This document shows positions 13,465 through 19,088 of a stretch of 64,000 nucleotides of DNA, one piece after another. Every line of letters starts with the position of its first letter. The stretch's first letter is position 1. A program made the position numbers and the translations under genes. Source of the DNA: Salisaeta longa DSM 21114 (lineage in GTDB: Bacteria > Bacteroidota > Rhodothermia > Rhodothermales > Salinibacteraceae). The DNA is taken from NCBI RefSeq assembly GCF_000419585.1, contig NZ_ATTH01000001.1, positions 1,944,005 to 2,008,004 on the forward strand. Direction: 5' to 3'. The notes below the pieces were generated by a model. It saw only the letters and a program-made list of their open reading frames with translations, was not told the origin of the DNA and did no database searches.

Positions 13465-13653
13465 AAAACGAATGCCGTTAGGTTGAACATCGAACGGTCG
13501 TGCAACGGAGCGACCCAAACGGATGATTCGGCCCGCGGCGCAATGTAAATCCTTGGCGAAACCAGCGCGGTTCACCGAATTTCATGAACTCGGAGGCGCG
13601 CCTGCGGTTGACAGCGTCGCGTGCTTTTGCTACCGTATAGCAGCATTCCATAC

Positions 13654-13727
13654 TGCCCGGTCGTCTAATGGCAGGACAGCGGCCTTTGGAGCCGTCAGTG
13701 GTGGTTCGAATCCACCCCGGGCAGCCA
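13654..13727 (+). tRNA. tRNA-Gln (anticodon TTG)
   Basis: The 74-base gene starts TGCCCGG, which pairs with CCGGGCA at 13717-13723, followed by discriminator G and an encoded CCA. The anticodon stem GCGGC/GCCGT brackets the loop CTTTGGA, giving anticodon TTG (Gln). The D-arm and GTTCGAATC T-loop are normal. The window also encodes a glutaminyl-tRNA synthetase, so this tRNA is charged directly. Confidence 0.97.
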
Positions 13728-13739
13728 ACTGCGTTTCGC

Positions 13740-13776
13740 ATCCTGTGTCTCTCCCATCGAGGCACAGGATTTTTTT
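13740..13776 (+). terminator. Intrinsic terminator after tRNA-Gln
   Basis: TCCTGTGTCTC pairs with GAGGCACAGGA over 11 base pairs with one G-T wobble and a short loop. It is followed at once by seven T bases. This is a textbook rho-independent terminator, isolating the tRNA from the downstream prs gene. Confidence 0.88.
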
Positions 13777-13813
13777 CGGCCCACGCTCTCTTGTGCCCAC
13801 GCCCCCAGCCTCC

Positions 13814-14758
13814 ATGCCTGCTTCCTCCGACAGCCGCGTTGTCATCTTCGGGGGCCGCTCGAACCCGGCGCTCGCCCGCCGCATCGCGGCCTCGTATGGC
13901 ACCTCCCTCGGCGACGTGACGATCCGCGAATTTGCCGACGGCGAGATCTATGTGAGCTACGGCGAGTCGATTCGCGGCGCGGATGTCTTCATCATACAGA
14001 GCACCCATCCGCACGCCGACAACTGGATGGAGCTGCTCCTTATGATTGACGCGGCCAAGCGGGCCTCCGCGCGGCAGGTGACGGCCGTCATTCCGTACTT
14101 TGGCTATGCCCGCCAGGAGCGGAAAGACCAGCCGCGCGTGTCGATTGCGGCCAAGCTGATGGCCAACATGCTCACCACCGCGGGCGCCGACCGCGTGCTG
14201 ACGATGGAGCTGCATGCCCCGCCCATCCAGGGCTTTTTTGATGTGCCGGTCGACCACCTGTACGGCTCGGGCGTGCTCATCGATCATGTGCGCGCCTACG
14301 AGCTGGAAAACTTCGTGGTGGTTGCGCCCGATGTGGGCGCCCTCAAGATGGCGCGGGCCTACGCGCAGAAGCTGAACGCGAACATTGCGCTGATTGACAA
14401 GCGCCGCCCGCGCCAAAACGAGGCGCGCGTCATGAACATCATTGGCGACGTCGAGGGCATGAACGTCATGCTGATCGACGACATCGTGGACACGGCGGGC
14501 ACGCTCACCCGCGCCGCCACCGCCCTCCGCGAAGCCGGCGCCCTCGACATCATGGCCGCCTGCACGCACGCGCTCCTCTCGGGGCCGGCCTACGAGCGCA
14601 TCGAAGCCTCGCCGTTAGAGCGCCTCATCATCACCGACACCATTCCGCTGAAGCGCCCGTCCGACAGCATCGAAGTGGTTTCGGTGGCCGGCCTGTTTGC
14701 CAAAGCCATTCGCCACATCTACACCAACCAGTCGGTGTCCACCCTTTTCAAGGATTAA
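13814..14758 (+). CDS. prs: Ribose-phosphate pyrophosphokinase
   Basis: The 314-residue enzyme makes PRPP from ribose 5-phosphate and ATP for nucleotide, histidine and NAD synthesis. Visible motifs are FADGEIYVSYGESIRG (ribose-5-phosphate site), PYFGYARQERKD (catalytic loop), APDVGALKMARAYA and the PRPP-binding loop VMLIDDIVDTAGTLT near residue 218. The length matches the family, and the ATG at 13814 gives the usual short N-terminus before SRVVIFGGRSNPALA. It is followed 124 bases later by rplY, a pairing seen in many bacteria. Confidence 0.96.
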   Translation: MPASSDSRVVIFGGRSNPALARRIAASYGTSLGDVTIREFADGEIYVSYGESIRGADVFIIQSTHPHADNWMELLLMIDAAKRASARQVTAVIPYFGYARQERKDQPRVSIAAKLMANMLTTAGADRVLTMELHAPPIQGFFDVPVDHLYGSGVLIDHVRAYELENFVVVAPDVGALKMARAYAQKLNANIALIDKRRPRQNEARVMNIIGDVEGMNVMLIDDIVDTAGTLTRAATALREAGALDIMAACTHALLSGPAYERIEASPLERLIITDTIPLKRPSDSIEVVSVAGLFAKAIRHIYTNQSVSTLFKD

Positions 14759-15575: not shown

Positions 15576-15612
15576 AAGCGGCCGCTCTGCCTATCGGAGC
15601 GGCCGCTTTGTT
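15576..15612. terminator. Bidirectional terminator between rplY and the HemW-like gene
   Basis: AAGCGGCCGCTC (15576-15587) and GAGCGGCCGCTT (15597-15608) form a perfect 12-bp stem with a nine-base loop, followed by TTGTT. It sits between two convergent genes and can serve both. Confidence 0.82.
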
Positions 15613-15629: not shown

Positions 15630-16778
15630 TTACGCCTCAACCGACGCCGTCACCCCACGCAGCAGGCGCTCGGCAATGCCATCGGCCACGAGCCGCCCAT
15701 CGGGCGTGAGACGCACACAAGGAGCCGACGGATCGAGCGGTTCGATGAGGTCACCCGCCACCAGCTGATCGAGCAGGTGCGGATGCGTGGCCTGAAGGTC
15801 TACGCCGTAGCGCTCGCGGAGCACGCGCAGGTCGAGCCCCTCCAGCGTCCGCAGGCGCAGCAGCATGTACTCCTCGGCGCGCGCCGTGCGCGGAACCACC
15901 TCCCGAAACGAGATGGGCGCGTACGGCTCCCCGAGCAGCCGGCAGTACTCGTCAACATCCTGGACGTTGGCCCACCGGCGCGCCGGTTGCTCGTCGGTTT
16001 GCGCGGGCCACCAAAATGAATGCGCCGACGGCCCCACGCCGAGGTAGCTGCCGTGCGCGTAGTAATTCTCCTGATGCAACGAGCGGTGCCCGTCGCGGGC
16101 AAAGTGCGTGAGCTCGTACGGCGCATAGCCCTCGTCGTCCAAGAAGCGCATGGCATACGACAGGCGTTTGCCGTGCCGCACCGGGTCGTCCTCGGGCTCG
16201 GGGTTCCACTCGATCAGCGCCACGTGCGGCACGTGCATGCGGCGGACGTGGTTGAGGTTACCCTTCCAGTAATCGCTCGACTGCTCCCGCCATCCAAAGA
16301 GCAGGTCAACCGAAAGCGTTTCGAAGCCGGCTTGCTCGGCATGGTGCACCGCGTCTTGCGCCTGTGCGGCCGAATGCTCGGCCTGCAGGGCCGCGAGGTC
16401 GTCGGCAAAGAACGAGAGCACCGACAGGCTCACGCGGTCGAACCCCAGGCCGTGCACCGCCTGCAGGTAGTCGAGCGACGCATCGGCCGGATGGACCTCC
16501 AGCGTGGCCTCTTGGATGAGCGACGCATCGAACACATCGAGCACGGTGGTTACCAGCGCGCGCATCGCGGGGACCGGCAGCAGCGACGCCCGAGCGCCTC
16601 CCACGTACAACGACTTCACCGGCGCCTCGTCGTGATAGCGGGCCGCGTAAATTTCCAGCTCCCGCGTCACCGCCTCCACGTATGCATCAAAGGCGGTCGC
16701 GTCGGTCGGCACCTGATAGCTCTCGTCGTACGGGGCACGCGTACGACAAAACGGGACATGGATATACAGGCCGGCCAC
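15630..16778 (-). CDS. HemW-like radical SAM paralog lacking cluster cysteines
   Basis: The 382-residue protein is full length for HemW (heme chaperone, formerly called oxygen-independent coproporphyrinogen oxidase). It keeps the HemW frame: YIHVPFC at the start, LEVHPADAS, GFDRVSLSVLSF, SVDLLFGW, LGVGPSAHSFWW and a C-terminal HemW domain. However, the radical SAM CxxxCxxC motif reads C11, A15, D18, so two of three cluster ligands are missing. The SAM-binding GGGTPS loop also reads GGARAS (60-65). It cannot carry the normal 4Fe-4S cluster and so is probably not a radical SAM enzyme; heme binding or another role is possible. The reading frame is intact, so it is not an obvious pseudogene. Confidence 0.8.
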   Translation of the reverse strand: MAGLYIHVPFCRTRAPYDESYQVPTDATAFDAYVEAVTRELEIYAARYHDEAPVKSLYVGGARASLLPVPAMRALVTTVLDVFDASLIQEATLEVHPADASLDYLQAVHGLGFDRVSLSVLSFFADDLAALQAEHSAAQAQDAVHHAEQAGFETLSVDLLFGWREQSSDYWKGNLNHVRRMHVPHVALIEWNPEPEDDPVRHGKRLSYAMRFLDDEGYAPYELTHFARDGHRSLHQENYYAHGSYLGVGPSAHSFWWPAQTDEQPARRWANVQDVDEYCRLLGEPYAPISFREVVPRTARAEEYMLLRLRTLEGLDLRVLRERYGVDLQATHPHLLDQLVAGDLIEPLDPSAPCVRLTPDGRLVADGIAERLLRGVTASVEA

Positions 16779-16812: not shown

Positions 16813-17817
16813 CTACGACGGCAAAGGATCCTGCTCCTTCCACTGCTTAATTTCGACGTGCTCTTGGATAAGGTCAAGCGACTGAATGAGCATGGACCGT
16901 GAAAGCCGGCTGAGGCGCTTGTCATAGTCGCTCATCAGCACCGCATCCGTCGAGATCGTGGCAATGTGGCCCAGCACGACGTCGTTCTCGGGCGAGGCCA
17001 CATCGGCCACCATCTGGTCGATGACGCGATACACAATGTCGCTGATGGCATGTTCGAGCAAGGTGCTTATCGTGCCGCCCACGCCCGGAATGCTCGCAAT
17101 CGTGCCAATCTCGCGATTTTCGGACACGGCCTTCGCAATCACGCCATCAAGATACGTGCGAAAGTCCTCCTGATACTCCATGTACGCCTGCGCGGTGGCC
17201 TGCTGCAGCCGCTGCGTCACAATCTCGGTGAGCACGTCGCGCTGCGGCACAATGGCTTCGTTTACGATCTGCTCCGTCACCGGATGGCCTTCCCGAATGC
17301 CGTCTTTTACGCTCTCCAAGATGCGGGCGGCCACCCGGTCGGTAATCTCCTCGATGAGGGCCGCCCAGTACCGCAGCGCCGTCTGGTACACCGCCAGCTG
17401 CCGCACGTCAATCCACCCCAGGCGTTGCAGCTTGGGCACCATTGCAATGATGCGTAGCAGGCGCAGCGACCGGAGCGAGCCCACCGGAATGCACCCGAGC
17501 ACGTCGTACCAGTGCGCAAACGGATAGTACCACCAGCGCTCGTAGGTGCCGCGCCGGATGGCCACGATCCACCGCACTGTAATTTCTACGATGAAGATCG
17601 AGACGAACCCCAGGTCGTACAAAATGAAATGCTCGTGCACGTACGTGCCATAGAACGCGTAAACGTTGGGGGCGTAGGCACTCAAAAGCCGTTGCACCGA
17701 CGGCATGGTGTAGAGCCAGTCCACTGCGAGCAACGCCAGGTTGGCGCTAATAAGCACGAGCATGACACCATCGAGGACGAGCAGCCAGCGGGCCCGTTGA
17801 GAGTCGGTTGCAGCCAT
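16813..17817 (-). CDS. Voltage-sensor-like four-helix membrane protein without a pore
   Basis: The 334-residue protein has four predicted membrane segments in the first 135 residues: S1 (about 11-33), S2 with IFIVEITVRW (64-87), S3 with HWYDVLG (98-112) and S4 with RSLRLLRIIAMVPKLQRLG, where arginines recur every third residue. This is the layout of a voltage-sensing domain. No S5-P-S6 pore or TVGYG-type filter follows. Instead there is a helical domain of about 190 residues of no known family to me, with a Gly-rich IPGVGGTIS segment. It may be a regulator driven by membrane potential or a proton channel. The ATG at 17817 is chosen over GTG codons upstream. It is minus-strand, 34 bases before the HemW-like gene. 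Confidence 0.65.
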   Translation of the reverse strand: MAATDSQRARWLLVLDGVMLVLISANLALLAVDWLYTMPSVQRLLSAYAPNVYAFYGTYVHEHFILYDLGFVSIFIVEITVRWIVAIRRGTYERWWYYPFAHWYDVLGCIPVGSLRSLRLLRIIAMVPKLQRLGWIDVRQLAVYQTALRYWAALIEEITDRVAARILESVKDGIREGHPVTEQIVNEAIVPQRDVLTEIVTQRLQQATAQAYMEYQEDFRTYLDGVIAKAVSENREIGTIASIPGVGGTISTLLEHAISDIVYRVIDQMVADVASPENDVVLGHIATISTDAVLMSDYDKRLSRLSRSMLIQSLDLIQEHVEIKQWKEQDPLPS

Positions 17818-17900
17818 AAACACCACGCATCGTTCAGAAGAAACGGTCGATACAATATCGCAGAGCGCACGCCAAGATGAAACGCCGTTTGTAGCCGCCT

Positions 17901-19088
17901 ATGCTGGATCTCCGGAAATTACACGAGCAACTGGCGGACTTCCGCACGCACGAGCGCACCATGCGCGACCGGCGGACCGAGCAGCTGGCTCGGGCCCGTG
18001 CGGCATTGGAAGCCTGCGCCGGCGCCGACTGGGCCGCGCTGCGCGACCGCGTGCAGGCCTGCGATCCAAGTCCGCTGGTGGCCGAGCTGCGCGACGACCC
18101 GACGGCGCGGTACGCGGCACCCGAGCGGCCCACGCCGCTCACCATCGTCGCGGCCGACGGGTCTCAGATCTACCCCGACCGCCACGTGGAGCCCACGTTC
18201 TTTCTGCTCAACATCAGCAAAATTGCGTTTCAGTACGGCACAACCGAACCACCGGTGCTGGATGCCGTGCCGGATTTGCACTTCCGCGAGCGCCTCGACG
18301 CCCACTTCGATGCAACCCTGGGCAGCGTAACGACCGAGGTGGTATCGGCGCTGCGCGACGAGGCCGAGCTGCGCATGCTGCTTGATACGGCGCGCGACGC
18401 CATCTGCGACGGCCGCCCGCTCGTGGCCCTTGCCGATGGCACGCTCATCCGCTGGATGCTGCGCGGCATGCGCAACCGCGCCGTCGAAGAGGAGCTCATC
18501 GCGCGTTATGCCTCCATGCTGCGCTCCTTCCGCGACGAGGCCCTGCCGCTGGCCTCGTACATCAGCCGCCCCGCGAACACCGAGGTGGTCAACTTTTTGC
18601 GCGTCGTGCTGGCCGAGATTGGCGCGCTGACGCCGCTTGTTGACACCGGCGCGGTGCCCGAGGGCGCGCCGCTAGAGGGCCTGCTCGATCGCACGCTCAT
18701 GCAAGCGGTGTTGGATGTCGGCGAGCGCTCGGCGGTCTTTCAATCGACCTCGCACATTCAAGCCTCGTACGAGGCCGAAAGCGCCATCTGCTACGTGTAC
18801 GTCAAGATCCCGGTGGGAGCGCACCGCAGCGAGATTGCGCGCATCGAGTGCCCGCGCTGGGTGGCCGACGCCCCGGCGCTGCTCGACACCATTCACGCGC
18901 TGGTGCTGGATGAATGCCAGAAGGGAGACGGCTACCCGATTGCGCTGTCTGAGGCCCACGAGCGCGCGGTGGTGCGCGCACCGGAGCGCGAGGCGTTCTT
19001 CCGCCTGCTCGACCGCACCTTCCGGCGCGATGGCCTGCCCGCCCAGGGCTCGCGCAAGCGCTTCAGCAAGCAGCGGCCCCGCGTGTAG
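17901..19088 (+). CDS. nurA: NurA-domain nuclease
   Basis: The 395-residue protein carries the NurA fold: the metal-binding aspartates lie in VAADGSQI (about residue 84) and in ALADGTLIRWML (about residue 179), and a C-terminal histidine/aspartate region lies near 320-350 (LVLDECQKGDGYPIALSEAHE). NurA is a 5'-3' nuclease that acts with the HerA ATPase in double-strand-break end resection. The next gene is a HAS-barrel protein, the domain otherwise found at the N-terminus of HerA, which supports a repair role. HerA itself is not in the window. The N-terminal 60 residues are a basic, coiled-coil-like helix. Confidence 0.85.
   Translation: MLDLRKLHEQLADFRTHERTMRDRRTEQLARARAALEACAGADWAALRDRVQACDPSPLVAELRDDPTARYAAPERPTPLTIVAADGSQIYPDRHVEPTFFLLNISKIAFQYGTTEPPVLDAVPDLHFRERLDAHFDATLGSVTTEVVSALRDEAELRMLLDTARDAICDGRPLVALADGTLIRWMLRGMRNRAVEEELIARYASMLRSFRDEALPLASYISRPANTEVVNFLRVVLAEIGALTPLVDTGAVPEGAPLEGLLDRTLMQAVLDVGERSAVFQSTSHIQASYEAESAICYVYVKIPVGAHRSEIARIECPRWVADAPALLDTIHALVLDECQKGDGYPIALSEAHERAVVRAPEREAFFRLLDRTFRRDGLPAQGSRKRFSKQRPRV

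Follow-up and report, generated by a model that had tools for sequence, protein, structure and literature searches.

A HemW ortholog of Salisaeta longa that has lost its cluster ligands, and the same loss among its Salinibacteraceae relatives

To our knowledge, the reason why the heme carrier HemW holds a radical SAM cluster is not understood. In E. coli HemW, the cluster is dispensable for heme binding and necessary for transfer to NarI, according to the account given in PMC10320005, which cites Haskamp 2018. Here we describe a hemW gene of Salisaeta longa whose product has lost the cluster ligands, together with its relatives; our literature search found no paper that deals with Salinibacter HemW, PsgB or pseudo-SAM proteins.

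The window analysed is a stretch of 64,000 nucleotides from S. longa DSM 21114 (contig NZ_ATTH01000001.1). For one of its genes an earlier reading of the sequence, the original prediction, had claimed an intact frame of HemW length, Cys11-Ala15-Asp18 in place of the cluster motif, and GGARAS in place of GGGTPS. The features of the locus are the following.

15576..15608, no strand assigned: GC-rich perfect inverted repeat, AAGCGGCCGCTC / GAGCGGCCGCTT, read directly from the sequence; it lies between hemW and L25, two genes that converge there
15630..16778, minus strand: cluster-less HemW ortholog of 382 aa, with a GTG start, no internal stops and full-length HemW architecture
15687..15893, minus strand: HemN_C domain, residues 296-364 (PF06969, 35.8 bits, above the cut-off)
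16044..16133, minus strand: residues 216-245, the segment of tightest constraint (pN/pS 0.12), with His225, His235 and His242, and HQENYY replacing HNxxYW
16584..16601, minus strand: residues 60-65, GGARAS, replacing the SAM-binding GGGTPS
16725..16748, minus strand: residues 11-18, CRTRAPYD, replacing CxxxCxxC (C11/A15/D18)
16813..17826, minus strand: voltage-sensor-like membrane protein (VSD), with N-terminal hydrophobic helices, an S4-like arginine series and a conserved helical C-terminal part; a 34-base gap separates it from hemW, upstream of which it lies
17901..19088, plus strand: nurA, divergent, the usual hemW neighbour in Rhodothermales

The frame is indeed intact over the HemW length (382 aa, no internal stops), and both motifs read as the original prediction had stated; Asn96, Gly119 and Gln121, radical SAM core positions that do not vary among intact relatives, are altered as well. 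The HemW profile TIGR00539 covers residues 4-346 and scores 145.5 bits, below its cut-off of 205.4 bits, while intact Rhodothermales HemWs (n=3) reach 258-297 bits and other cluster-less ones (n=7) 51-162 bits. The radical SAM domain PF04055, its motifs gone, also falls below the Pfam cut-off (21.3 vs 29.5 bits), and we infer that normal cluster binding and normal SAM binding are both ruled out for this protein. The heme motif HNxxYW has become HQENYY, and the N-terminal LYxHxPF strand, which contains His7, is retained. Structure modelling, proposed as a check on the original prediction, returned a confident HemN-like fold: the AlphaFold2 model has a pLDDT of 94 and a pTM of 0.92, and its nearest solved structure is E. 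coli HemN (1olt, TM 0.80). The model thus indicates that the HemN/HemW barrel and HemN_C are kept despite the loss of the cluster ligands. The inverted repeat at 15576-15608 is, from its sequence, probably a terminator common to hemW and L25. Elsewhere in the window, a tRNA-Gln (TTG anticodon) at 13654-13727 lies inside the listed ORF 13523-14758 that holds prs, so the true prs start is further downstream.

Within the S. longa genome (3.40 Mb, 3 contigs, 98.5% complete) we found no second HemW-like gene, intact or not. Since it is the only HemW in the genome and occupies the ancestral place beside nurA, the gene is a HemW ortholog, and not a spare copy or the non-radical HemW paralog that had been proposed; a paralog next to an intact HemW within S. 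longa was rejected on the same ground. The second, intact HemW whose absence the original prediction took as a point against itself is thus missing from S. longa, and an intact/degenerate pair does exist in two genomes of f9, another Rhodothermales family (G034, G046). Four other radical SAM proteins of S. longa carry CxxxCxxC. S. longa has kept heme synthesis, HemF and ferrochelatase both being present; HemN was not found in its genome, though most near-complete Salinibacteraceae relatives have a full HemN, and the coproporphyrinogen step in S. longa probably relies on HemF alone. A HemN misread as HemW was likewise considered and rejected, S. longa being without HemN even though many relatives have one over the cut-off.

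The loss extends well beyond S. longa. Cluster cysteines are missing in 20 of the 24 Salinibacteraceae genomes with a readable motif (S. longa counted), and the other four (G004, G006, G011 and G014) have an intact HemW; outside these 24, G019 has no readable N-terminus, and the incomplete assemblies G001 and G013 show no HemW. Salinibacter ruber is very probably among the cluster-less members. In the other Rhodothermales families, wherever the N-terminus was read, CxxxCxxC occurs in at least one copy in every family, and in a second set of 117 sequences, mostly Bacteroidota and partly overlapping the first set, the motif is missing only in Salinibacteraceae, in f9 and in one fragment without an N-terminus. 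The C/A/D pattern, whose conservation in orthologs was to be checked, is mostly R/R/D instead: the commonest cluster-less state is R-R-D with a GGGRPS loop, and C/A/D with GGARAS is private to S. longa. The codon for Cys11 is TGT in S. longa vs CGN in relatives, and this lone cysteine looks like either a private R-to-C change or a private retention. For such cluster-less genes, the annotations 'HemW' and 'coproporphyrinogen oxidase' are unsafe.

In most intact relatives hemW is directly divergent from nurA; in cluster-less genomes with both neighbours on the fragment, the voltage-sensor-like gene stands between the two, and the place of hemW is otherwise kept. The cluster-less rows (n=18) form one clade (support 99/96), in which g9 (G008, G016) is the earliest-branching genus. 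The losses are graded. Members of g9 have lost the cysteines and kept GGGTPS and Gly119/Gln121; g3 (G002, G009) has lost the cysteines and has a GGGRPS loop, with HNxxYW kept; in the other cluster-less members the loop is GGGRPS and HNxxYW has mostly become HQxxYY or a similar sequence. The histidine of GPSAHS is replaced by Glu in most cluster-less members. Each of the two f9 genomes has two HemWs (L069 and L070 in G034, L077 and L078 in G046), the cluster-less copy beside nurA and the intact copy elsewhere. In the tree the cluster-less f9 copies attach to the clade of Salinibacteraceae, but only weakly (support 80/93) and with long branches in play, so that one loss and two losses both fit. 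The intact HemW genes of Salinibacteraceae are placed elsewhere in the tree, their union with the cluster-less clade not being rejected (p-AU 0.25 and 0.40), and hemW may have been replaced in either the intact or the cluster-less group. As a separate observation, the cluster-less HemW of G034 is nearer to the HemW of other families than to the intact copy of the same genome.

Several explanations compete for these data. The idea of an ordinary radical SAM HemW with a private mutation or a sequencing error, which had been named as an outcome that would overturn the original prediction, has virtually no chance of being right and was rejected: the loss is common to 19 other genomes, and the other radical SAM genes of S. 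longa are intact. The claim of a change of function, not a sequence error, gains support from a loss that is inherited and family-wide in a gene under purifying selection. A shared role with the voltage-sensor-like neighbour had also been suggested; in one rival reading, the protein is a neofunctionalised non-heme scaffold or regulator that partners its upstream neighbour. No Pfam family exceeds its cut-off on the VSD protein: Ion_trans (PF00520) scores 9-13 bits vs a cut-off of 25, and the NaChBac profile gives weak matches (E 0.16-0.23). With the ion-channel score below the cut-off, the 'voltage sensor' label rests on the S4-like arginine series read directly; the structure model of this protein was unusable (pLDDT 52). 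The synteny itself is real: in 18 genomes, all of the cluster-less clade, the two genes lie side by side in the same direction, a short gap apart (34 bases in S. longa, 13 in G007). VSD is also family-specific: every Salinibacteraceae genome with HemW has it, and the search of other Rhodothermales families turned up none. Nevertheless, this reading is unlikely, and the shared role stays conjectural: VSD is unlinked in the four intact-HemW genomes and in the cluster-less g9 (genera g5, g7 and g9), it is far more strongly conserved than HemW, and no VSD-HemW fusion was seen. VSD presence as the cause or partner of cluster loss was equally unsupported, given its occurrence in all family genomes with HemW and its unlinked position in those three genera.

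Slow decay, in which HemW is dispensable in halophiles and the gene drifts under relaxed selection with only residual constraint, is a serious rival, considering the relaxed constraint and continuing erosion. The cluster-less hemW is under purifying selection (dN/dS 0.13-0.41 in eight close pairs), but its ratios are about 2-7 times those of the adjacent VSD gene (0.05-0.11) and 1.8-2.8 times those of nurA (0.12-0.16) in the same pairs. Intact HemW has values of 0.03-0.08 in family f3 and 0.36 in Salinibacteraceae genus g5, where nurA evolves equally fast; weaker constraint on the cluster-less than on the intact form is therefore suggestive, in a comparison that is not clean since intact g5 reaches 0.36. 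Erosion goes on: G022 and G023 have deletions where the motif used to be, G019 has an unreadable N-terminus, and S. longa has the GGARAS loop. Against decay, which we regard as fairly unlikely, stand a frame that stays full-length in about 20 species, whose divergence varies widely, invariant residues scattered over the whole protein, and the strong constraint on residues 216-245 around the former HNxxYW, where pN/pS along the gene has its minimum of 0.12 (maximum 0.43-0.55 in the last 107 residues). Arg63, Glu190 and His225 are among the residues that never vary in the main cluster-less clade, and His225 is found in intact g5 too.

The reading that we favour, with about an even chance, is that the S. 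longa gene is the family's vertically inherited hemW, which lost both its ligands and its SAM pocket while staying at its locus, with no back-up copy, and which would have kept a cluster-independent heme role. Under this explanation, the [4Fe-4S] ligands would have gone first and the SAM pocket afterwards, with selection keeping the part of the HemW job that needs no cluster. The protein possibly retains heme carriage, with a putative site in the former HNxxYW region (His225/His235/His242, plus His7 of the LYxHxPF strand), and heme would be handed to hemoproteins without a radical-SAM step. As E. coli HemW binds heme without its cluster, a cluster-free form could plausibly do so too; delivery of the heme would have to work by a different mechanism. 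In favour of this reading are the single HemW-like gene, its nurA-linked place, the 99/96 clade, the graded losses, purifying selection, the tight constraint at residues 216-245, the fold and the presence of heme synthesis; against it, the published heme motif is itself changed (HQENYY), the GPSAHS histidine is mostly Glu, and constraint is below that of the neighbours VSD and NurA, as partial decay would give. A further point against it is that NarI, the known target in E. coli, turned up in none of the 60 genomes searched, with intact HemW or not; a missing NarI was rejected as an explanation of cluster loss for want of any contrast. The more specific proposal of a family-wide replacement by a cluster-free, SAM-free heme carrier, with a rebuilt His225 and His235/His242 site and membrane hand-over together with the voltage-sensor-like protein, is very unlikely.

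The family-wide cluster-free HemW, its graded intermediates, the relatives with an intact gene at this locus and the f9 genomes with both forms make up a comparison set, and Salinibacter-type halophiles are natural test cases for HemW's need of a cluster. Should the cluster-free form prove able to bind heme and hand it over, chaperoning does not require radical SAM chemistry; in the opposite case, these bacteria get by with no HemW function.

Compared with known systems, HemN, the oxygen-independent coproporphyrinogen dehydrogenase (1olt), offers the nearest solved fold (TM 0.80), but it is an enzyme with a cluster, and the S. longa protein scores 75.0 bits where the HemN family requires 324.95. 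CgdH2 of Campylobacter jejuni is HemN-like with reported heme binding via histidines (PMC10320005), and differs in keeping the cluster motif and belonging to the MenK branch. PsgB (TIGR04419), a HemN-related non-iron pseudo-SAM protein, has by its name lost the iron-sulfur site and is a precedent of the same kind; the S. longa protein is nonetheless far below its cut-off (57.7 vs 300 bits) and is outscored there by the intact HemWs tested. With HemW itself (TIGR00539; E. coli, L. lactis and human RSAD1) it shares the orthologous place, full length, fold, HemN_C and LYxHxPF strand, while it lacks CxxxCxxC and the SAM-binding loop, has an altered HNxxYW and scores 145.5 against the 205.4 bits required. 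The S. longa gene is a non-radical HemW ortholog: the change is real, inherited and shared across the family, in a gene that is ordinary in other respects.
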